Assembly (NCBI RefSeq): GCF_900128445.1 | Contig: NZ_LT671417.1 | Location: 186,001-250,000 of the forward strand | From: Thermophilibacter provencensis | Lineage (GTDB): Bacteria > Actinomycetota > Coriobacteriia > Coriobacteriales > Atopobiaceae | Direction of reading: 5' to 3' | Length of the DNA stretch: 64,000 nt | Shown: one piece after another, positions 17,942-36,118 of the stretch | Position numbering within the stretch: position 1 is the stretch's first letter | Layout of the letters: each line of letters begins with the position of its first letter | The notes under the pieces: generated by a model | What the model saw: only the letters and a program-made list of their open reading frames with translations | What the model was told of the DNA's origin: nothing | Database searches by the model: none | Program-made: the position numbers and the translations under genes

Positions 17942-17972
17942 CTGCAAATTGGGGACAGTCCCCAATTTGCAG
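17942..17972. repeat. 3'-end palindrome, CTGCAAATT-arm variant
   Basis: A perfect 31-bp palindrome: arms CTGCAAATTGGGGA and its complement around the 3-nt centre CAG. It starts 1 nt after the prs stop codon. The arm sequence differs from most family members but the GGGGACAGTCC centre is kept. Confidence 0.9.
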
Positions 17973-17989
17973 AAACGTTTGATATTGCT

Positions 17990-18015
17990 GCGGGGCCGTC
18001 TTCGGGCGGCCCCGC
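17990..18015 (+). terminator. GC hairpin between prs and pth
   Basis: Stem GCGGGGCC with GGCCCCGC and a loop containing TCTTCG. No T-run follows. It lies directly before the pth ribosome-binding site, so it may end the prs transcript or attenuate pth. Confidence 0.5.
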
Positions 18016-18032
18016 CGTCCATGAGGAGAGCC

Positions 18033-18599
18033 ATGCCAGCTGCAGCCAAGCCCGCCGCCATCCGCATCATCTGCGGCCTCGGCAACCCCGACGCCGAGTA
18101 CGCGCGCACGCGGCACAACGCCGGCTTCGCCACCATTGACGCCATCGCCGCGCGACGGGGAGTGCGCTACTGGAAGTCTGAGGCAGGCGCGCAGGTGGCC
18201 TCGATCGCGGTGACCGACAGGGACGGCGAGAGGCGCGAGGTTCTTCTCGCCAAGCCGATGAGCTACATGAACACCTCGGGAGGGCCGCTCTCCAAGCTGG
18301 CGCGCGCGCACCGGGTTCGCCCCGAGGAGATTCTCGTGGTCCACGACGAGGTCGACCTGCCCGCGGGCGAGGTCAGGCTCAAGCTGGGCGGCGGTCTCAA
18401 CGCGCACAACGGCCTGCGCTCCATCGCCGACAAGCTCGGCAGCCGCGACTTTGCGCGCGTGCAGTTTGGCATCGGCCGGCCACCCGGGCGCATGCAGGTG
18501 GCCGACTACGTGCTGCGCGAGCTTAAGGGCTCCTTCCTTGAGGACTTCGAGCTCACCGTGGAGCGCGCCGCGGACCTCGTGGAGCAGAGCCTGCAGTAG
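18033..18599 (+). CDS. pth: Peptidyl-tRNA hydrolase
   Basis: A 188-residue enzyme that frees stalled peptidyl-tRNAs. All family motifs are present: ICGLGNPDAEYARTRHNAGF (with the catalytic His), LLAKPMSYMNTSG, ILVVHDEVDLPAGEVRLKLGGG and HNGLRSIADKLGSRDFARVQFGIGRP is represented in two adjacent blocks. The ATG at 18033 has AGGAGAG upstream. It follows prs in the same direction after a repeat and a hairpin. The DNA just downstream is corrupted by adapter sequence, but the coding region ends normally before it. Confidence 0.95.
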   Translation: MPAAAKPAAIRIICGLGNPDAEYARTRHNAGFATIDAIAARRGVRYWKSEAGAQVASIAVTDRDGERREVLLAKPMSYMNTSGGPLSKLARAHRVRPEEILVVHDEVDLPAGEVRLKLGGGLNAHNGLRSIADKLGSRDFARVQFGIGRPPGRMQVADYVLRELKGSFLEDFELTVERAADLVEQSLQ

Positions 18600-18625
18600 C
18601 GTTCCAGCGTGGAAAGGGGGCAGGC

Positions 18626-18685
18626 GTGCAAAGGGGACAGGCACTTTTGCACGGCCCCGTGCAAAAGTGCCTGTCCCCTTTGCAC
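18626..18685. repeat. Two fused palindromes (inverted pair) after pth
   Basis: Copy one has arms GTGCAAAG and CTTTTGCAC around GGGACAGGCA. After CGGCCCC a second copy follows in the opposite orientation, so the whole piece folds back on itself. Such double units exist elsewhere here (48400-48482), but this one touches adapter-derived sequence at 18688, so part of it could be an assembly artefact. Confidence 0.65.
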
Positions 18686-18687
18686 AA

Positions 18688-18764
18688 GTCTCTTATACAC
18701 ATCTCCGAGCCCACGAGACCGTACTAGATCTCGTATGCCGTCTTCTGCTTGAAAAAAAAAAAAA
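18688..18764. other. Illumina Nextera adapter, index and poly-A (contamination)
   Basis: The Tn5 mosaic-end piece TCTCTTATACACATCT is followed by CCGAGCCCACGAGAC (read-2 adapter), an 8-nt index CGTACTAG (18720-18727), the P7 end beginning ATCTCGTATGCCG (18728-18751) and 13 A residues. This is the exact order of a read running through an Illumina Nextera library adapter. Translated on the minus strand it gives FFFFQAEDGIRD, a known contamination peptide. The next 40 bases or so (to about 18805) are low-complexity CACA-rich sequence that also looks unreal. Confidence 0.97.
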
Positions 18765-18922
18765 GACATACACATACACACATCTAACAACAGTCACGCC
18801 CCCCACCGGACTTCTTTCCCGCTAGCGGGCAATGCGCCCTCTCTGGGGTACAATTGAGGATGTTGGAATGGCCTCGACCGAGGCCTCAACACAAGAGGGA
18901 ATGCAGGAGAGGAGTTCGGTTA

Positions 18923-19765
18923 ATGTACAAGATCCTCGAAAAGACGCAGTTCTCTGAGAAGGTGTTCAAGTTTCGCATCGAGGCGCCCCGGATGGCCAAG
19001 CACGCTCACGCCGGCCAGTTCCTCATGGTGCGCGCCAACGAGACGGGCGAACGCGTCCCGTTCACGCTTGCGGGCTGGAACCCCGAGGAGGGCTGGGTCG
19101 AGTTCATCTTCATGGTGATCGGCAAGACCACGGAGATGCTGTCCACCTACGAGGAGGGCGACTCCATCCAGGACGTCACCGGCCCGCTCGGCCAGCCGAC
19201 CGAGATGGCCGACGGTCCCTGCGCCGTCATCGGCGGCGGCGTCGGCCTCGCCATCGCCTACCCGGTGGCCAAGCACCTGGTGGAGACCGGCCACGAGGTC
19301 CACGCCATCATGGGCGCGCGCACCAAGGACCTGCTGCTGCTCGAGGAGCAGTTCCGCGAGCTCCTTCCGGAGGACCACATCCACATCACCACGGACGACG
19401 GCTCCTACGGCGAGAAGGGCGTCGTCACCGCACCGCTCGAGCGCCTGCTCCAGGACAAGGCCGTCTCCCAGGTCTTCTGCGTCGGCCCCGTGCCGATGAT
19501 GAAGTTTTCCGCCCTCACCGCCGAGAAGTACGGCACGCCGATCACCGCGTCCCTCAACCCCATCATGGTCGACGGCACCGGCATGTGCGGCTGCTGCCGC
19601 GTCGAGGTCGACGGTCAGACGAAGTTCGCCTGCGTCGACGGTCCCGACTTTGACGCCACCAAGGTCGACTGGAACGACCTGCGCGCGCGTCAGGCCGCGT
19701 ATCTCACCGAGGAGGGCCAGTCCCTCAAGGCCTATGAGGAGGCGAACTGCGCATGCCACAGGTAA
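18923..19765 (+). CDS. nfnA: NADH-dependent ferredoxin:NADP oxidoreductase, small subunit
   Basis: A 280-residue FAD/NAD-binding iron-sulfur subunit of the NfnAB complex, which couples ferredoxin and NADH oxidation to NADP reduction by electron bifurcation. It has the ferredoxin-reductase fold: RVPFTLAGWNPEEGW (FAD), AVIGGGVGLAIAYPVAKHL (NAD) and a C-terminal 2Fe-2S motif MCGCCRVEVDGQTKFACVDG. The ATG at 18923 follows AGGAGAGGAG; the frame is open upstream to 18854. A TACAAT at 18849 may be the -10 box. The end overlaps nfnB by 13 bp. Alternative readings are a dihydroorotate dehydrogenase electron-transfer subunit or sulfide dehydrogenase SudB, but the partner gene argues for Nfn. Confidence 0.9.
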   Translation: MYKILEKTQFSEKVFKFRIEAPRMAKHAHAGQFLMVRANETGERVPFTLAGWNPEEGWVEFIFMVIGKTTEMLSTYEEGDSIQDVTGPLGQPTEMADGPCAVIGGGVGLAIAYPVAKHLVETGHEVHAIMGARTKDLLLLEEQFRELLPEDHIHITTDDGSYGEKGVVTAPLERLLQDKAVSQVFCVGPVPMMKFSALTAEKYGTPITASLNPIMVDGTGMCGCCRVEVDGQTKFACVDGPDFDATKVDWNDLRARQAAYLTEEGQSLKAYEEANCACHR

Positions 19766-24306: not shown

Positions 24307-25992
<1,686 letters not shown>

Positions 25993-25997
25993 GGTTT

Positions 25998-26288
25998 CTA
26001 GTCCTCGATGACGGCGTAGATGTCGTCGGCGCGCAGGAGCAGGAAGTCCTCGCCGTCGATCTTCACCTCGTTGCCGCCGAACTTGCCGTAGTAGACCTCG
26101 TCGCCAACCTTAACGTCGATGGCGATGCGCTCGCCCTTGTCGTTCATCTTGCCAGCGCCCACGGCGACGACCTGGCCGCGCTGCGGCTTCTCCTGCGCGC
26201 CGCTGGAGATGTAGAGACCGGTAGAGGTCTTCTCCTCCTTGGGGGCGGGCTTCACGAGAACGCGATCACCAAGCGGCTTCAGAGTCAT
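25998..26288 (-). CDS. groS: Co-chaperonin GroES
   Basis: A 96-residue 10-kDa cap of the GroEL cage. Seen are the N-terminal [14 protein letters not shown], the mobile loop [18 protein letters not shown] that contacts GroEL, the roof [19 protein letters not shown] and the C-terminal [16 protein letters not shown]. The start at 26288 has AAGGAGG just upstream. First gene of the groES-groEL operon. A minus-strand TATTAT at 26373-26378 may be its -10 box, about 85 bp upstream. Neither a CIRCE nor a HAIR inverted repeat was seen, so heat-shock control by HrcA or HspR is not supported by this sequence. Confidence 0.97.
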
Positions 26289-26584
26289 AGTAAGGAACCT
26301 CCTTCTTGCGCCCGAACGGGCGTGTTTCTGCGGTGCGGGTGACGTCGTGCACCGCCCTGTCCAACGTTCAGAATAATACCCAGCCGCACGGACTTATACC
26401 ACCTCGCGTAAAAAAATCTTCCAACTCGCACTTAGATTTTCTGAGGCGCAGCGGAGCAGGAGGAACGGGCGCGCCGCTTGCCCGCGCTTTTCGCCGCACG
26501 CGGATAGGAGCGCGGGGGCGGGGTACGTCGCGCGGCATTCAGGGTACGATAAGCTCACCACACCCCGGACGGGAGGGCGGAGCC
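26289..26584. other. Divergent promoter region of groES and the lipoprotein gene
   Basis: About 296 bp without a gene. It is AT-richer near 26370-26430, where the groES promoter probably lies. No conserved heat-shock operator or other repeat was recognised. Confidence 0.5.
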
Positions 26585-27754
26585 ATGAGGACTCGCGTCG
26601 TGAAAGCCCTGAGAGAGCTCGTCTTCTGCGTGCTCGCCCTGCCCCTCGCGGCCACCCTGGCGGCATGCGCTCCCCAGGCCTGGGAGCCGCCTCCCGGCAC
26701 CATGCAGAGCGGGTGGCGGGGCTCCTCCATGATTGGCATCAACATGCTCGTGTCCGGCTACACGTGGGACGGCGGCGCCTCCGACGCCGCGGCGCCCATG
26801 GATGTGGGTGAGGGCGTCCCGCACTTCGAGGTCGAGGGGGCCGAGACGGTGCGCGTGTACTTCTCGCAGGCCGCGACGGACGTGGACGTCGCGCGCTACT
26901 CGGCCGATGCCGAGGAGGGCGAGCCCGTGGCCGTGTCCGGAATCACCAGCGACGGCGTCACCCTCGAGGTCGAGCCCGGCTGGCGCTACGCCGTCTCCGC
27001 CCAGTTCGAGGACGGGAGCGCGGACTACCTCATCGACGTTGTGTCTGACGGGTCCGCACAGGAGGAGTTCACGAGCACGGCGATGGTCGTCCTCCTGGGC
27101 AACGGAGAGCCGCTCTTCATAGACCGGGAGACCGAGTCGCCCTACTACCCCACCCTACCGGATGACGCTCCCGAGCTCGCGACGGGCAACATTGTGCGCG
27201 TGACCGGCAACGGCATCATGCTCGAGAGCTACCCCGCGCAGTATCCCGGCATCACCAAGGTGGAGGTCCTCGAGGAAGGCGCGCCCGAGGACGCCGAGAA
27301 GTACGCCGAGCTCGCGGCGCAGCTCTGGCAGCCCAAGGACCCGGCTGAGCCGGCGCTCGCCACCCTCGAGTACCGCACCGAGGAGGCCTCCGTCTCGCTG
27401 TTTCCGCTCGCCAACGCCTGGACGTGGTCCTACGAGCAGAACGGCGATACGGTGACGGCCTCCAACGACGCGCCCGCCGCCAACCAGATCGACGCGACCG
27501 ACCTCCCCGAGGTCGCCGCCGGAGAGACCGTCGAGGTCACCATGACCTTCGACCTTCCGCCGGTCGAGTCGGACGACTCCCGCTGGCCCGAGGTGGCGCG
27601 CTACCCCGAGAACGACCTCGAGACGGGCGCCGAGGCGGTGGACGTCACGCTCTCTGGCGGAGCGCTCGAGTTCGCCGTTGAGCCCGGATGGCGCTATCGG
27701 GTCGACGTCGCGTTCGACGCCGGGCAGGTCAGCTACGTCTTCACCGTGAGGTGA
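26585..27754 (+). CDS. Lipoprotein of unknown function
   Basis: A 389-residue predicted lipoprotein. Residues 1-23 form a signal peptide with a basic start (MRTRVVKALRELVF), a hydrophobic core and a lipobox LAAC, so the mature protein is anchored outside the membrane by Cys23 or so. It has two beta-rich halves that end in related motifs: EVEPGWRYAVSAQFEDG near the middle and AVEPGWRYRVDVAFDAGQVSYVFTVR at the C-terminus. The same closing motif ends the next (broken) gene, so the two are relatives. The ATG at 26585 was chosen for the signal peptide and GGGAGGGCGG upstream; the frame is open to 26306. No known enzyme motif was seen. Confidence 0.75.
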   Translation: MRTRVVKALRELVFCVLALPLAATLAACAPQAWEPPPGTMQSGWRGSSMIGINMLVSGYTWDGGASDAAAPMDVGEGVPHFEVEGAETVRVYFSQAATDVDVARYSADAEEGEPVAVSGITSDGVTLEVEPGWRYAVSAQFEDGSADYLIDVVSDGSAQEEFTSTAMVVLLGNGEPLFIDRETESPYYPTLPDDAPELATGNIVRVTGNGIMLESYPAQYPGITKVEVLEEGAPEDAEKYAELAAQLWQPKDPAEPALATLEYRTEEASVSLFPLANAWTWSYEQNGDTVTASNDAPAANQIDATDLPEVAAGETVEVTMTFDLPPVESDDSRWPEVARYPENDLETGAEAVDVTLSGGALEFAVEPGWRYRVDVAFDAGQVSYVFTVR

Positions 27755-27763
27755 CACGAGGGC

Positions 27764-27790
27764 GTGCAAAGGGGACAGGCACTTTTGCAC
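27764..27790. repeat. 3'-end palindrome after the lipoprotein
   Basis: Arms GTGCAAAG and CTTTTGCAC around GGGACAGGCA; it begins 9 nt after the stop codon at 27754. Confidence 0.85.
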
Positions 27791-27831
27791 GGCTTCCCCC
27801 TTAGCTCGTATTGGCGGAATGGGGTACGGAC

Positions 27832-28409
27832 ATGAAGCCCAGGGCATCTTGCGGCATCGCGATCGCCGCGATTCTGGCCATCGTCGTTGTCACCTTCGCA
27901 TCCTGCGTGACGCTCCCGCATGACGGAGAGCGCGGCCCCATGCCGACGTCCCCGGGGCGCGGGCCCTGGCATCCGGAGAGGACGGCGCCGTCGCGCTCAC
28001 CCTGGACAACTACACCTGGAGCTTCATGAACGGCAGCGAGAGGCGCATCGAGGAGCTCCGCCAGATAGACCCCCAGGAATGGCGCGTCGACGATCTGGCC
28101 CAGGTGTCGGTGGCCGAGGAGGCATCCATCACCGTGCTCTTTGACGAGAGGCCGCTCTGGGCATGCGCGCGGAGCTGGGACGAGGAGGAGCTCGCCGCCG
28201 GCTCGATAGCGGACTCACCCCTTTTCTGGCGGCTCCGCACGCTGCTTGACGCGGCGGGCTCGGTGGGCGACGAGGTCCCCTCGAGCTTCGAGGACGGCGT
28301 CCTCACGTTTGATGTCGAGCCCGGGCGCCGCTATGCGATCAGCACGACCTACGAGCAGGGCTTCTCAGGAAACGACCGCATCGAGTACGTCTTCACCGTG
28401 CAAAAGTGA
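27832..28409 (+). pseudogene. Second lipoprotein of the same family, frameshifted
   Basis: From ATG 27832 a lipoprotein signal peptide is read: MKPRASCGIAIAAILAIVVV to a lipobox FASC. After about 35 residues the frame turns to nonsense, while a second frame from about 27940 gives clear protein: LASGEDGAVALTLDNYTWSF, then FDERPLWACARSW and the family end FDVEPGRRYAISTTYEQG and IEYVFTVQK. One shift near 27925-27960 joins the two. Length is about 190 residues, half of the upstream relative. The gene ends inside a palindromic repeat, which supplies its last two codons and stop. It is a recent pseudogene or a sequencing error in a GC-rich run. Confidence 0.7.
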
Positions 28410-28424
28410 CTGCCCCCTTTGCAC
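28398..28424. repeat. 3'-end palindrome between convergent lipoprotein relic and nadE
   Basis: Arms GTGCAAAAG and CCTTTGCAC around TGACTGCCC. It contains the stop codon of the gene on the left and ends 1 nt before the nadE stop. Confidence 0.85.
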
Positions 28425-28425
28425 G

Positions 28426-30366
28426 CTACAGCGCCTCGAGCTCGGCGAGCCAGAGCGTCGCGCAGGCGTCCGACGGCATGCGCAGGTCGCCGCGCGGGCT
28501 CACGGCCGCCGAGCCCACCTTGGGGCCGTCGGGCAGGCAGCTGCGCTTGAACTGCTGGGCGAAGTAGCGGCGATAGAAGACCTTGAGCCAGGAGAGGATC
28601 GTCTCGTCGTCGTACTTCTCACCCAGGGCGTAGCGGGCGAGGCGGTAGACCTTGGCCGGGTTGGTGCCGCGCCGAAGGACCTCGTAGAGGAAGAAGTCGT
28701 GCAGCTCGTAGGGGCCCACGAGGTCCTCGGTCCTCTGCGCGATCGTGCCGTCTCCGGTGGCGGGCAGGAGCTCCGGCGAGACGGGCGTGTCCAGCACGTC
28801 GAGAAGGACGCGCGCCTCGTCCGCGTCCCCGCAGGTGTCGGCCACGTAGCGCACCAGATGGCGCACGAGCGTCTTGGGCACGCCGGCGTTCACCGCGTAC
28901 ATGGACATGTGGTCGCCGTTGTAGGTGGCCCAGCCGAGCGCCAGCTCTGAGAGGTCGCCCGTGCCGATGACGAGGCCGCCCTCCTGGTTGGCCACGTCCA
29001 TGAGAATCTGCGTGCGCTCGCGCGCCTGGGAGTTCTCGTAGGTGACGTCGTGGACAGACTCGTCGTGCCCGATGTCCGCGAAGTGCTGGCGCACCGCGGC
29101 GGCGATGCCGACCTCGCGAAGCTCGGCTCGTACGGTGCGGGCGAGCTCGCAGGCGTTGTTGTAGGTGCGATCCGTGGTGCCGAAGCCCGGCATGGTCACC
29201 GCGATGATGCCGTCGCGCGGAAGCCCCAGCAGGTCGAAGGCGCGCACGGCCACGAGCAGGGCGAGCGTGGAGTCCAAGCCGCCCGAGAGACCAATCACCG
29301 CGCGGCGCGAGCGCGTGTGCGCGAGGCGCTTAGCGAGACCGTGCGCCTGGATGGAGAAGACGTCCTCGCAGCGCTCCGCACGGCGGGCGGCGTCGGTGGG
29401 CACGAAGGGGTGCGGGTCTACGTAGCGGGTGAGCGCGGTCTCGCGCGTGGCCGCGTCCGCGCCCAGCGAGAACGACGCGACCGCATAGCCCGCGGCCTCG
29501 GGCGAGGATGCGCACTCGAAGGTGGACATGCGCGTTCGCTCGGCCGCGAGGAAGCGGACGTCAATCTCGGAGACGGCGCGACCGTCGCCGAAGGGACTGC
29601 CCTCCGCGAGCAGGCGGCCGTTCTCGGCCACCAGATCGTGCCCGGAGAAGACGAGGTCCTGCGTGGACTCGCCGGTGCCGGCGCTCGCGTAGACGTAGCC
29701 GCAGACGAGGCGGGCGCTCTGGCCGGACACGAGGCTGCGGCGATAGTCCGCCTTGCCCACGATGGCGTTGGACGCGCTGAGGTTGCAGATCAGCGTGGCT
29801 CCGGCCTGCGCGTGGGCCGTGGAGGGCGGCGCGGGAACCCAGAGGTCCTCGCAGATCTCTGCCGCCACCACGAGCTCGGGGAGCTCCTCGCAGGTAAAGA
29901 GCAGGTTCGTGCCAAAGAGGGTGTCCCGGTTGCCGGCAAACAGGACGAGCGTGACCTCGGCGGGGCCGGGAACGAAGTGGCGCCCCTCGTAGAACTCGTT
30001 GTAGGTGGGGATGTGCGTCTTGGGCACAAGGCCGAGGACCTCGCCGCGAGAGACCGCGGCGGCGCAGTTGTAGAGCTTGCCGCCGGCGCGCACGGGCACG
30101 CCCACGAGGATGAGGGCGGGAAGGTCGGCGGTGCGGGCGGCAAACTCGGCGAGGCCCGCCTCGGCGGCGCGGACGAGCGACTCCTGCCAGAAGAGGTCCT
30201 CGCAGGTGTAGCCCGTAATCGCGAGCTCGGGCAGCACGATGACGGCCGCGCCGTCCTTCTCGGCAGCCTGGCGCGCGGCGGCCACGCAGGCCTCCACGTT
30301 GAAGGAGACGTCCGCGACGCGCACCTCCGGCGTCACCGCCGCGACCTTGACGAATCCGTCCCTCAT
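28426..30366 (-). CDS. nadE: Glutamine-dependent NAD+ synthetase
   Basis: A 646-residue two-domain enzyme making NAD+ from deamido-NAD+ with glutamine as nitrogen source. The N-terminal nitrilase-type glutaminase (residues about 5-290) has its Glu in [16 protein letters not shown], Lys in [15 protein letters not shown] and Cys in [12 protein letters not shown]. The C-terminal synthetase (from about 340) has the PP-loop [16 protein letters not shown] and [19 protein letters not shown]. The stop is 1 nt from a palindrome shared with a convergent gene. An upstream palindrome separates its start from the RAYT gene. No NAD-biosynthesis partners are near. Confidence 0.95.
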
Positions 30367-30379
30367 CCCAGCCTCCTCC

Positions 30380-30406
30380 GTGCAAAAGGGACAGTCACTT
30401 TTGCAC
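30380..30406. repeat. RAYT-flanking palindrome, left copy
   Basis: Arms GTGCAAAAG and CTTTTGCAC around GGACAGTCA; ends 1 nt before the transposase stop codon at 30408. Its core runs in the opposite direction to that of 31211-31237, so the transposase gene sits between an inverted pair. Confidence 0.9.
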
Positions 30407-30407
30407 G

Positions 30408-31151
30408 CTACGTCGTTGCTCTCGTGATGGTGCCGCGGCCAATGCCCGTAAGCCTCTCGACCTGCCTCACGGACAGCCCCGCCTCCCGCAACTCACAGAG
30501 TAGCGCATTGCGCCGAGCCTTCTCCTGGCTCTTGAGCTCAGATGCCGTCAGCGGTCCCAAAACCTCGCGCGCAACTTCCCCCGCCATGGAGTCAGCAAGC
30601 CTTGGCCATGCTGGAGGGCGGTAGCGAACGCGCTCGGGAGAGCTGGAGAACCTGACGAACGCCTCGCGGCTGCCGAGCATCTCAAGCAGCAGCCCGGTGT
30701 CGGCATACTCGGGAGCACCGACGTACTCATGGTAGCTGCTCCACGGATAGTCCGCGGCCGCGCAGATGCCAGCTTTCGCAGGGTTGTTGTGGATATAGCG
30801 CATGGCCTCAAGAAGATAGGATTCGCCCTCGACGGGGCTGCTGTAGAACCGTCCCTGGAACACATGCCCGACGTGACCACCTCGCTTGTTGAAGCGGTGG
30901 GCGTAGCGAGTGGCGAGGGAGCGCATTAGCTCGCTTAGGCAATCGCCCGGATCTTCGAGAAGCAGGTGAATGTGATTTGACATGAGGCACCATGCCAGGA
31001 CGCTTGCGCCGTGCTTGCGCACAGCTGCCAGCAACATGTCAAGAAACGCCAAACGGTCGGCATCGTCCTCAAAGAGGTTCTGCCGACCGTTTGCGTAAAG
31101 AACTACGTGGTAAAAGCCAGATTCTGCGACACGTCTCGGTAATCTGGGCAT
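30408..31151 (-). CDS. REP-associated tyrosine transposase (RAYT, Y1_Tnp)
   Basis: A 247-residue single-stranded-DNA transposase of the IS200/IS605-related RAYT class. The N-terminal signature PRRVAESGFYHVVLYANGRQ is followed by the HUH metal motif His60-Ile-His62 in MSNHIHLLLE and the catalytic Tyr119 in MRYIHNNPAKAG, both intact. The C-terminal LREAGLSVRQVERLTG forms a helix-turn-helix as in other long RAYTs. RAYTs are domesticated single-copy genes thought to spread or maintain REP palindromes by nicking them. Here the gene is flanked by two inverted palindromes of the family scattered over the window. ATG 31151 has GGGGAGG upstream. Codon use matches its neighbours, so it is resident, not newly acquired. 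Confidence 0.92.
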   Translation of the reverse strand: MPRLPRRVAESGFYHVVLYANGRQNLFEDDADRLAFLDMLLAAVRKHGASVLAWCLMSNHIHLLLEDPGDCLSELMRSLATRYAHRFNKRGGHVGHVFQGRFYSSPVEGESYLLEAMRYIHNNPAKAGICAAADYPWSSYHEYVGAPEYADTGLLLEMLGSREAFVRFSSSPERVRYRPPAWPRLADSMAGEVAREVLGPLTASELKSQEKARRNALLCELREAGLSVRQVERLTGIGRGTITRATT

Positions 31152-31210
31152 AGCGCCTCCCCTCACCTTGTTGGTGAGAGATGTTATACCCCTTCAAACC
31201 TCCGACAAGC

Positions 31211-31237
31211 GTGCAAAAGTGCCTGTCCCTTTTGCAC
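31211..31237. repeat. RAYT-flanking palindrome, right copy
   Basis: Arms GTGCAAAAG and CTTTTGCAC around TGCCTGTCC. It lies 60 bp upstream of the transposase start and 1 nt after the stop of the ABC ATPase gene (minus strand). Confidence 0.9.
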
Positions 31238-31238
31238 G

Positions 31239-32003
<765 letters not shown>

Positions 32004-32009
32004 GATGTC

Positions 32010-33287
32010 CTACCTCCCCTGGCCCCGGCCGCGACGATGCTTCTTGCCATCCCGCGGGGGCGCAGCACTGACCTCTTCGGTCTTGACGGGCGTGTCAGAC
32101 GTGCTGCCCACGACCTCGGCGCTCACGTTGAAGCGGTGCGCAAAGCGCCCGAGCAGCCACGTGGCCAGCATCGTGAGGATGAGGTAGGCAACCGTGGAGA
32201 TGAGCGCCGTCTGGAACTGCTGATAGTAGATGCCAGCCACGGTCGTAGTTGCAAACATCAGGTCGAAGGTGCCGATGACCGAGAGCACCGACGAGTCCTT
32301 GATGTTGATAACGAGCTCGTTGGAGAGGCCGGGAATCGCGTACTTGATTCCCTGCGGGAAGACGACCTTAGCCATGGCCTGCCACTGAGAGAGACCCAGG
32401 GAGCGCGCCGCCTCGGTCTGGCCCTTGTCGACCGACTCGATGCCACCGCGCAGCACCTCCATCATGTAGGCGGTCGAGTTGAGCGTGATGGTCACGAGGC
32501 CCGCGAGAAACGTCGTCCAGATGCCGTTGATCTGGGTGGTGGTGAGCGCGGTCATGCGCAGGATGCCAAAGACGCCGTAGTAGATGATCATGGCCTGGAC
32601 CATCATCGGCGTGCCGCGGACCACGGTGGAGTAGAGCTTGGCAAATCCCGAGCCAACGACCTTCCAGAAGCGCACGAAGTCGTTGTCCGGCCGGTCGATG
32701 GTCTGGATGCGCGCAAAGACGAGCAGCAGCGCCAGGAAAAACGCGATCACGGTGCCAAAGACCGCCAGCTCGACGGTGGTGACAAGGCCGGTGAAGAACG
32801 TGTCACGCCCCTGGTAGAGGATGTAGCACATGCTCTCGAGCATGGGTTCGGGACGGTGCGGGTCCGCCGAGTTTGCGGCCTGCACGGCAACGTCCCACGC
32901 CGACGCCACGCCCATGACCACACGGTCAACGAAGAGCACAAGCACGATCGCCCAGATCACGTACGAGGCGTAGCGCAACGCGCGACGGAAGGCGGGCCTG
33001 GCAAAGGGCGAGAAGGACGTGTAGTCGCGCCACTTTGCGAGCTTGGTCACGAGCGCGACGGCGCTCACCACGAGCCACGCAACGAGCACGTAGTACATCA
33101 CGAGCTCGACGGTGAACGCGTGGGCGAGGAAGCTCATCGCCGGACGGGGCGAGCTCGAGAGCAGCATGCCCGCGAGCGCCACCGCGCTCGTGCCGAGAAG
33201 GACGTAGCGATGGTCATCAAAGAAGAACGAGGCGACGCGACCACGCGTCCTTCTCGCCGTCTGCTCGCCGGAGGGAGCGGAGCTCAT
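32010..33287 (-). CDS. Amino acid ABC transporter permease with N-terminal membrane extension
   Basis: A 425-residue permease; the HisM/GlnP core needs only about 220. The C-terminal half (from about residue 175) has the inner-membrane permease domain: VTTVELAVFGTVIAFFLALLLVFAR, GTPMMVQAMIIYYGVFG and the EAA loop EAARSLGLSQWQAMAKVVFPQGIKYAIPGLSNE. The first 170 residues hold three extra hydrophobic segments (about 30-50, 62-85 and 108-130) of unknown role. A Lys/Arg-rich tail (PRDGKKHRRGRG) ends the protein. The ATG at 33287 has AAGGAG upstream and was preferred over a start at 33332. Located between the binding-protein and ATPase genes. Confidence 0.9.
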   Translation of the reverse strand: MSSAPSGEQTARRTRGRVASFFFDDHRYVLLGTSAVALAGMLLSSSPRPAMSFLAHAFTVELVMYYVLVAWLVVSAVALVTKLAKWRDYTSFSPFARPAFRRALRYASYVIWAIVLVLFVDRVVMGVASAWDVAVQAANSADPHRPEPMLESMCYILYQGRDTFFTGLVTTVELAVFGTVIAFFLALLLVFARIQTIDRPDNDFVRFWKVVGSGFAKLYSTVVRGTPMMVQAMIIYYGVFGILRMTALTTTQINGIWTTFLAGLVTITLNSTAYMMEVLRGGIESVDKGQTEAARSLGLSQWQAMAKVVFPQGIKYAIPGLSNELVINIKDSSVLSVIGTFDLMFATTTVAGIYYQQFQTALISTVAYLILTMLATWLLGRFAHRFNVSAEVVGSTSDTPVKTEEVSAAPPRDGKKHRRGRGQGR

Positions 33288-33361
33288 CTTGTATCTCCTT
33301 CGTATTTCATGCGTGCGGGCGCGCGCCCTCATCTGCGGCGCGCGCCCCTATCTTACGCGAT

Positions 33362-33388
33362 GTGCAAAAGTGACTGTCCCTTTTGCAC
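33362..33388. repeat. 3'-end palindrome between permease and binding-protein genes
   Basis: Arms GTGCAAAAG and CTTTTGCAC around TGACTGTCC. It is 1 nt past the binding-protein stop (33390) and inside the transporter operon, where a stable hairpin could raise the level of the binding-protein mRNA segment. Confidence 0.9.
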
Positions 33389-33389
33389 G

Positions 33390-34322
33390 CTACGCCGGCT
33401 GGCGATCCATGCAGTCGTTCCACATCTGCTGGCGCTCGTCCTCGGGGATGGCGTTGATGACCTCGTTGATCTGCTCGAGGACAGTCTCCTGGCCCTTGGC
33501 GATGGCCGCGTTGTCCGGCATGACGGAGCCCTCGAACTTGTCCTCCATCTCAAGCTCCACGAAGTTGGGGTAGGTCTCGAGCAGCTTGGGCACCGAGAGC
33601 ATGGAGTAGGTGATGACGTCGCTCGTGCCGGAGGCGAGGCTCTCCACGACGATGGGCACGGTCTCGCCCGGCGTCATGTGGTTGATGTCGGGGATCTGGT
33701 CGATGACCGTGTCGTACATGGTGGCCGCCTGCCCCATGACCGACGCGCCCGCGAGGTCGGCGAAGGTCGTGGCGCCAGCGTAGGGAGAGTCCTGCGCGGT
33801 GATCATGACGATGTCGTCGTCGATGTAGGAGTCGGAGAAGTCGGCAGACTGCGCGCGGTCCGGGTCCACGGACATGCCGGCGCAGACGATGTCGATCTGG
33901 CCGTTGTTGAGCGCGTCGATGAGGCCGGCGAAGTCGAGCTTCACGGCCACGGGCTCCATGCCCAGGGCCTCGGCGATGCGCTTGGCGACCTGCACGTCGT
34001 AGCCGTCGGCGTAGGCGCCGGAGACGTTCTCGATGGGGATGGTGAACTCGGACTCCTCGGAGACCTGCCAGTTGTACGGGGCGTAGGCGGCCTCCATGCC
34101 AACGCGGAGGGTCTCGCCGTCGCCGAGCGTGGCGGCCTCGGTGGTGTCCGCGGCGTCGTCGGCCGGCTCGTCGGTGGTGTCCGTGGTGGAGTCCTGCGCG
34201 GCGGGGCCGCAGCCGGAAAGGACCATCACGCCTCCCATGCCCGCCACGAGGCTCGACAGCTTGAGAAAGTCGCGGCGAGAGACTCTTTCAGATACGTACA
34301 CGTGCGTGGGGGTGGCCTTCAT
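33390..34322 (-). CDS. Amino acid ABC transporter substrate-binding lipoprotein
   Basis: A 310-residue extracellular solute-binding protein of family 3. The N-terminus has a Tat-type motif SRRDFLKLSSLVAG followed by a lipobox LSGC, so it is probably exported folded by Tat and lipid-anchored. An acidic Thr/Asp linker (TTDTTDEPADDAADTTE) precedes the binding domain, which has GMEAAYAPYNWQVSE, GYDVQVAKRIAEALG, DIVCAGMSVDPDRAQSADFS and DNAAIAKGQETVLEQIN. The ATG at 34322 has GAAAGGAACC upstream; the frame is open further, but without signal features. First gene of the transporter operon, divergent from L-cysteine desulfidase. Confidence 0.93.
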   Translation of the reverse strand: MKATPTHVYVSERVSRRDFLKLSSLVAGMGGVMVLSGCGPAAQDSTTDTTDEPADDAADTTEAATLGDGETLRVGMEAAYAPYNWQVSEESEFTIPIENVSGAYADGYDVQVAKRIAEALGMEPVAVKLDFAGLIDALNNGQIDIVCAGMSVDPDRAQSADFSDSYIDDDIVMITAQDSPYAGATTFADLAGASVMGQAATMYDTVIDQIPDINHMTPGETVPIVVESLASGTSDVITYSMLSVPKLLETYPNFVELEMEDKFEGSVMPDNAAIAKGQETVLEQINEVINAIPEDERQQMWNDCMDRQPA

Positions 34323-34512
34323 GGTGGTTCCTTTCCCTTTTGTGTGAAATCCCCTTCCGCGCGACGCAACCGGAGGGGACCCATTCCCCTCCCCCTTGCA
34401 AGCGGGCGCACCCGATGCGAGAAAGTTACGCGCACGGCATGGGAGGATAGCGCGCCGGCGACCGTCGAGCGAGCTGATAGTATGCTGAGAAACACCGTCG
34501 TAACGGGTGGGC

Positions 34513-34539
34513 GTGCAAAAGTGCCTGTCCCCTTTGCAC
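34513..34539. repeat. Palindrome upstream of cysteine desulfidase
   Basis: Arms GTGCAAAAG and CCTTTGCAC around TGCCTGTCC, followed by an extra TCCTTTGCAC half-copy. It is one of the few members that lies at a 5' end (24 bp before the cyuA start) instead of a 3' end. Confidence 0.85.
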
Positions 34540-34562
34540 GTCCTTTGCACGGAAGGAGTGCC

Positions 34563-35849
34563 ATGGACCAGGAGACCTACGACGCCTACGTCGCCATCCT
34601 CGAGGAGGAGCTCGTCTGTGCGATGGGCTGCACCGAGCCCATCGCCGTGGCCTACTGTGCCGCGCTCGCGCGCCAGACGCTCGGGGCGCTGCCCGAGCGC
34701 GTGAGCGTTGCCGCCTCGGCAAACATCATCAAGAACGTGAAGAGCGTCGTCGTGCCCAACACGGGCGGCGCGCGCGGCATCGAGGCCGCCGCAGCGGCGG
34801 GCGTGGTCGCGGGCAACGCGGACGCCAAGCTCGAGGTCCTAGCCGGCGTGACCGGGGAAGAGATCGCCACGATGCGCGATTTTCTCGCCACGCACGAGGT
34901 CAGCGTCTCGCCGAGCGAGCGCCCGTGGATCTTCGACATCCAGGTGCGCGTCTCGGGTGACGGCCACGAGGCGCTCTGCGAGATCGCCGGTTCGCACACC
35001 AACGTCATCCACGTGGAGCGCGACGGAAAGGTTCTTCTCAGCGAGCCCTTCGAGGAGTCCGCAGGCGAGAGGGACGCCGGGACGGACCGCGGCTGCCTTT
35101 CCATCGAGAAGATCGTCGAGTTTGCCGGCGCGGTGGAGATGGATGACGTGAAGCAGCTGCTCGGCCGACAGATCGCCTGCAACATGGCTATCGCGCGAGA
35201 GGGCCTGGAGGGCGAGTGGGGCGCCAACATCGGAAGCGTGCTGCTCTCCGCATACGGCGACGGCGTGGCCAACCGCGCCAAGGCCTGGGCCGCCGCAGGA
35301 TCCGACGCGCGCATGGGCGGCTGCGAGCTGCCCGTGGTCATCAACTCCGGCAGCGGCAACCAGGGCATCACCGCCAGCGTCCCCGTGATCGTCTACGCGC
35401 GGGAGCTGGACGTCTCCCACGAGGAGCTGCTGCGAGCGCTCGTAGTGTCCAACCTCGTGACCATCCACCTCAAGACCGGCATCGGCCGCCTCTCCGCCTA
35501 CTGCGGCGCCACGAGCGCGGGCGCTGGCGCGGCGGCCGGCATCACCTACCTCTATGGCGGGCGCGCGGACGAAATCGCACACACCGTGGTGAACGCCATC
35601 GCCATCGACTCCGGCATGGTCTGTGACGGCGCCAAGGCGAGCTGCGCGGCAAAGATCGCGAGCGCGGTCGAGGCGGGACTTCTGGGCATGCAGATGCAAA
35701 TCCAGGGCAAGCAGTTCTACGGCGGCGACGGCATCGTGGTCAAGGGCGTGGAGAACACGATTCGCAACGTAGGCGTTCTGGCGGCCCAGGGCATGCGCGA
35801 GACCGACCGGACGATCATCGAGCTCATGTGCGGGTCCGGCGCATGCTAG
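34563..35849 (+). CDS. cyuA: L-cysteine desulfidase (UPF0597/CyuA family)
   Basis: A 428-residue enzyme of the family that breaks L-cysteine into pyruvate, ammonia and sulfide with a 4Fe-4S cluster. Seen are the N-terminal VCAMGCTEPIAVAY with its cluster-type Cys, the glycine-rich VPNTGGARGIEAAAAAG, IVINSGSGNQGITASVPV-like VVINSGSGNQGITASVPV, YCGATSAGAGAAAGITYL and MVCDGAKASCAAKI. The ATG at 34563 with GGAAGGAG is the start; the frame happens to be open for more than 3 kb upstream as an antisense shadow. It diverges from an amino-acid ABC importer, which suggests an uptake-and-breakdown module for cysteine or cystine. Older annotation calls such proteins serine dehydratase-like. Confidence 0.88.
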   Translation: MDQETYDAYVAILEEELVCAMGCTEPIAVAYCAALARQTLGALPERVSVAASANIIKNVKSVVVPNTGGARGIEAAAAAGVVAGNADAKLEVLAGVTGEEIATMRDFLATHEVSVSPSERPWIFDIQVRVSGDGHEALCEIAGSHTNVIHVERDGKVLLSEPFEESAGERDAGTDRGCLSIEKIVEFAGAVEMDDVKQLLGRQIACNMAIAREGLEGEWGANIGSVLLSAYGDGVANRAKAWAAAGSDARMGGCELPVVINSGSGNQGITASVPVIVYARELDVSHEELLRALVVSNLVTIHLKTGIGRLSAYCGATSAGAGAAAGITYLYGGRADEIAHTVVNAIAIDSGMVCDGAKASCAAKIASAVEAGLLGMQMQIQGKQFYGGDGIVVKGVENTIRNVGVLAAQGMRETDRTIIELMCGSGAC

Positions 35850-35851
35850 AC

Positions 35852-35878
35852 GCGCAAAAGGGACAGGCACTTTTGCAC
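35852..35878. repeat. 3'-end palindrome after cyuA
   Basis: Arms GCGCAAAAG and CTTTTGCAC around GGACAGGCA, beginning 2 nt after the stop codon. One arm base is mismatched relative to other copies. Confidence 0.85.
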
Positions 35879-36091
35879 GGTCTGGGCTCGCATTTCCGTA
35901 ATAACGCGTCTATGCGCGCGGCCTTTCAGGCGCATGAGCGCACCTGCGGCCGAGGTCGCCAGCGTAGCCAGTGAGCGAGCCGCCCGCGCCCGACACGCAA
36001 TGCCGGAGCGCGGCGTTACGCGGGATCGCCAGGGGTCTGCCGCATCCGGTCACACCCCTTCACTCCGCACGTCCTATGAGGATGCAAAAGC
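35879..36091. other. Gap between two palindromes without a gene
   Basis: About 210 bp between the repeats at 35852 and 36092. No ORF with protein-like character, tRNA or hairpin of note was seen. Confidence 0.5.
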
Positions 36092-36118
36092 GTGCAAAAG
36101 TGCCTGTCACTTTTGCAC
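36092..36118. repeat. 3'-end palindrome overlapping the tsaD end
   Basis: Arms GTGCAAAAG and CTTTTGCAC around TGCCTGTCA. It supplies the last residues VQK and the stop of the TsaB-RimI-TsaD gene, the same ending the repeat at 28398 gives to the lipoprotein relic. Confidence 0.9.

Follow-up and report, generated by a model that had tools for sequence, protein, structure and literature searches.

Between pth and an nfnA-like gene of Thermophilibacter provencensis lies a stretch whose letters match sequencing reagents, and the question that this locus raises is whether these bases belong to the chromosome or were left there by sequencing and assembly. The stretch was examined within a window of 64,000 nucleotides, to which all unprefixed coordinates refer. 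The features on which the argument turns are as follows.

17949 to 18599, forward strand: pth, peptidyl-tRNA hydrolase open reading frame (longest frame; Pfam PF01195, E 3.6e-54).
18626 to 18685, no strand: native fold-back formed by a pair of 29-nt arms that are 100% complementary and 2 nt apart; a member of a genome-wide REP-like family.
18686 to 18687, forward strand: junction bases AA, which fit neither the adapter (CT) nor a mirrored copy of the base pair that flanks the palindrome on its left.
18688 to 18719, forward strand: Nextera mosaic end (17 of its 19 bases) and read-2 transposase sequence, as at the 3′ end of read 1; exact match.
18720 to 18727, forward strand: i7 index CGTACTAG (N702).
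18728 to 18751, forward strand: P7 end of the library molecule; exact match to P7.
18752 to 18764, forward strand: run of 13 A, read beyond the end of the library molecule.
18765 to 18796, forward strand: G-poor sequencer noise, without significant similarity to any of four adapter orientations; the last few bases may be native.
18797 to 18854, forward strand: native sequence by alignment to relatives, with a TACAAT box at 18849 to 18854.
18854 to 19765, forward strand: nfnA-like open reading frame with FAD-binding, NAD-binding, and DHODB-type Fe-S domains (Pfam PF00970, PF00175, and PF10418).

Letter-by-letter comparison within the window showed that positions 18688 to 18751 are identical to the Illumina Nextera tail at 64 of 64 bases, an exact match that is too long to be chance. 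From 18688 onward, the order is mosaic end without its first 2 bases, read-2 transposase sequence (32/32 for these two together), i7 index, and P7; without the mosaic end, the tail reads CCGAGCCCACGAGAC, then CGTACTAG, then ATCTCGTATGCCGTCTTCTGCTTG. The Nextera mosaic end starts with CT, and AA stands in that place here. Because these two bases are changed, the exact 19-base mosaic end was not found anywhere in this genome, and within 4 mismatches the window holds a single one. The run of A is followed by 32 bases containing 2 G; native DNA resumes directly after this noise, and there is no N anywhere in the window. A Nextera adapter, index, P7, poly-A run, and noise in library order are exactly what the original prediction had described. 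The adapter for trimming from read 1 is printed in PMC3906532, which also describes reads that pass the adapter into a run of A and then random sequence, the behavior seen from 18752 onward; CGTACTAG is labelled N702, a kit index label, in the primer table of PMC5570097. The idea that the noise is another, degraded copy of the adapter was not supported: when 18766 to 18797 were scored against four adapter orientations under two scoring schemes, 58 of 2000 shuffles were as good in the best of the 8 tests. The read-1 (P5-side) adapter was not found in this genome with up to 3 mismatches allowed.

A search of the same genome with up to 3 mismatches placed the tail at two sites only, the one in the window and the end of a 3365-bp contig (C2). 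The C2 copy is degraded, agreeing at 55 of 63 positions; it scored 47, versus at most 18 in 2000 shuffles, and its index, CGTCCTAG, matches CGTACTAG at 7 of 8 bases. Among 396 genomes of the class, 3 contain the read-2 part followed by an 8-base index of whatever sequence and then P7: the present one (CGTACTAG), G008 (two sites; CTCTCTAC), and G083 (GGACTCCT). At every one of these sites, the construct gives way to a run of A and then to noise. A different index in each of three genomes is not expected of a native element, and the recurrence of the construct with other indices in two further genomes of the class upholds the earlier reading of an assembly artefact. Scanning for P7 plus five A yielded at least 120 stretches in the genome collection and at least 120 in the viral collection. 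Six loci were read from the genome-collection scan; the tail lies inside contigs of 0.23 to 7.16 Mb in four (L116, L123, L128, and L129) and at contig ends in two (L102 and L113), with N after the tail in L123 (a TruSeq-type tail) and L129. A literature search on adapter contamination in genome assemblies returned no paper on that subject by title.

The edges of the damage were set by comparison with relatives. Positions 18300 to 19300 served as the query, and 19 relatives' loci (L002 to L020) were taken from 49 genomes with a match. No BLAST alignment in these loci covers 18688 to 18792 (query 389 to 493). Left-hand alignments, present in 18 of 19 loci, end at query 284 to 342, and right-hand alignments, present in all 19, start at query 494 to 603; the longest of the latter resume at query 494 to 498, that is, at 18793 to 18797, and the nearest relative, G012, agrees with the window at 95% from 18797 on. 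With no counterpart in 19 relatives, and with a second tail, whose index is almost identical, at the end of another contig of the same genome, the claim that the stretch is not biology stands. The false stretch is about 18686 to 18796 (~110 bases), plus some lost native DNA, and 18686 to 18687 are its left edge. Of the span first proposed for the adapter, 18688 to 18805, the start is correct and the end lies a few bases too far right.

The broader warning that about 18600 to 18840 is unreliable proved too wide on both sides. The pth stop codon (18597 to 18599) lies upstream of the artefact and is followed by 26 bases and then the fold-back, which is itself native; translation of pth may in fact begin at one of two ATG codons, at 18021 or 18033. 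On the other side, GGGTACAAT, which holds the TACAAT box, is found upstream of nfnA in 19 of 20 loci, among them that of the window, and the nfnA ATG sits in conserved context at 18923. Since alignments resume at ~18793 to 18797 and GGGTACAAT is conserved, pth, nfnA, and the promoter-like box are untouched. The nfnA leader (18855 to 18922) holds a small stem-loop whose stem letters, by eye, vary among relatives, and GAGGGAATGCAGGAGAGGAGT precedes the nfnA start codon in 18 of 20 loci. In two relatives (L008 and L017), the interval between pth and nfnA is longer by ~1 kb, and the additional DNA, by eye, holds a pair of small genes, one nucleotidyltransferase-like and one HEPN-like. Two spurious open reading frames, 18451 to 18825 (forward strand) and 18506 to 18790 (reverse strand), translate the adapter, and neither matches a Pfam family with an E of 1 or lower. 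Adapter-encoded peptides are a database nuisance; no literature on them was found.

The fold-back belongs to a palindrome family with the letters GTGCAAAGGGGACAGGCAC..., some members of which are nested. BLAST of 18600 to 18860 against the same genome gave 79 matches, and among those listed, all fall in query 1 to 87 except the self-match and the C2 adapter match. A half-site search with up to 3 mismatches gave 154 matches in this genome, versus 0 for the reversed control; these many dispersed copies indicate that the fold-back itself is native. The first 30 of the 154 matches correspond to 21 distinct elements, 14 of which have arms of ≥24 (the window's and 13 other palindromes). Eleven of the 13 others extend symmetrically past the point where 18626 to 18685 stops, and the adapter probably replaced the mirror of the palindrome's outer left arm. 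A 252-aa Y1_Tnp (IS200-like/RAYT-type) protein is encoded at 30408 to 31166 (reverse strand), with 9 palindrome half-sites around it (25974 to 36118) among the matches listed; Y1_Tnp has 4 matches in the genome, this one included. An Rfam search gave twelve matches, none at gathering score and none retained: 11 were to microRNA models, which in our view match long hairpins of whatever kind, and the twelfth was a weak match to an Actinobacteria sRNA inside pth.

We are almost certain that the insert is a leftover Illumina adapter tail, by which an untrimmed read 1 extended the pth contig, later joined to the nfnA contig. Under this explanation, the Nextera fragment was shorter than its read 1, which would have left the insert just past the fold-back palindrome and run on through the read-2 adapter, CGTACTAG, and P7 into the run of A and noise. 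The untrimmed tail would then have extended the contig carrying pth, and scaffolding or gap filling would have joined the false end to an nfnA-carrying contig starting at ~18797. The adapter in exact order, the lack of a counterpart in relatives, and the second tail at a contig end of this genome are established. The joining step we infer by analogy, scaffolding or gap filling being favored because N follow the tail in L123 and L129. Two observations count against this explanation. The AA before the adapter fits neither mosaic end nor palindrome, and the mosaic end is missing directly before CCGAGCCCACGAGAC at 4 of 5 comparison sites (L333, L336, L335, and L128; not L129), a pattern that one untrimmed read would not account for.

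The role of the hairpin is likewise inferred. That the fold-back caused the break, as first suggested, agrees with the closest relative, G012, where the pth and nfnA sides lie on different contigs whose ends, by eye, each carry hairpin arms and then low-complexity letters. Against it, both sides share one contig in 29 of 30 same-genus genomes, and G014 (L012) is unbroken despite what by eye is a long palindrome at the locus. The upstream hairpin score is 29 at the window site versus 5 to 7 at six other adapter sites (maximum of 15 among 200 random 120-mers of the window). With a long upstream hairpin at only 1 of 7 adapter sites, the hairpin was rejected as a general cause of adapter joins; it is plausible as a local cause at 18626 to 18685 and not needed in general. 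It is an improbable idea that the genus's nested REP-like hairpins interrupt short-read assemblies and that adapter tails become fixed at these points; if true, adapter chimeras would point to hairpins that the sequencer cannot get through.

A further fault lies elsewhere in the same assembly. Over its first 127 bases, C2 is identical to C3:1805792-1805918 read in reverse, and in all three relatives searched (G012, G007, and G026), a single contig carries the corresponding stretches in order. In G012, one ftsK open reading frame of 848 aa encodes 4TM, alpha, FtsK_SpoIIIE, and gamma domains, and the gene after it is the counterpart of a C2 gene with an HTH_25 domain. Here, C3 has only a 300-aa open reading frame with the 4TM domain, ending in the last codons of the HTH_25 gene; the remainder of ftsK and most of the HTH_25 gene are mostly on C2 and absent from the main contig. 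The join, C3:1805791/1805792 (L330 about 10791; C2 itself is L323), falls at a short stretch common to both genes, around CCGAGGCCGACCAG, and skips ~3.27 kb relative to G012. This is an apparent false join inside ftsK; some cells of the culture may carry a true deletion, but a false join is the simpler explanation.

Whether a sizeable native segment was also lost at the adapter, as apparently at ftsK, would add to the read-through explanation, and we consider it unlikely. The ~3.27 kb missing at C3:1805791/1805792 compared with G012, the ~1 kb between pth and nfnA in 2 of 18 relatives (L008 and L017), and the 11 of 13 palindromes with arms of ≥24 that go on symmetrically beyond the stop of the window's own all speak for such a loss. 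Against these points, 16 of 18 relatives have 146 to 353 bases over the printed span, versus 356 in the window and ~245 without the insert; in G012, the contig break conceals this length. A chimeric library molecule, with adapter joined to an unrelated fragment in place of read-through and scaffolding, is very improbable: real sequence should follow its adapter directly, and a run of A with random sequence is, according to PMC3906532, what reads give past the molecule's end. The return of native DNA with no N between is the point in favor of such a molecule. A real chromosomal insertion, for example, of an engineered Tn5 type, which uses the mosaic end and would share it at its ends, can practically be dismissed, as the index and P7 come from library primers, a single mosaic end lies within 4 mismatches in the window, and the construct occurs with other indices in other genomes and as a second copy at a contig end of this one. 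A true Tn5 insertion would be expected to bring a 9-bp target duplication.

The pth-nfnA insert is thus an ordinary sequencing artefact without biological meaning. It flags a faulty place in a publicly available genome, with ~110 false bases and two spurious open reading frames running into adapter, and users should check how this assembly was joined. Of greater consequence is the apparent false join that leaves ftsK truncated in the 2.63-Mb contig, its missing part being on a small separate contig.

REP/BIME palindromes go with RAYT (Y1_Tnp) proteins, and the present genome resembles that system in its many dispersed palindromes and its Y1_Tnp genes, one of them in the window, the link between palindrome and protein here being putative. 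The tails in other public assemblies (L116, L123, L128, L129, G008, and G083) are like the window's in having adapter, index, P7, and a run of A in or at the end of contigs; they differ in their indices, in the TruSeq type of L123, in the lack of a mosaic end in some, and in the N after L123 and L129. The Nextera read-through tail in PMC3906532 has the same adapter, order, run of A, and random sequence as the window, but there it occurs in raw reads, whereas here it has become part of a large contig and differs at two junction bases.
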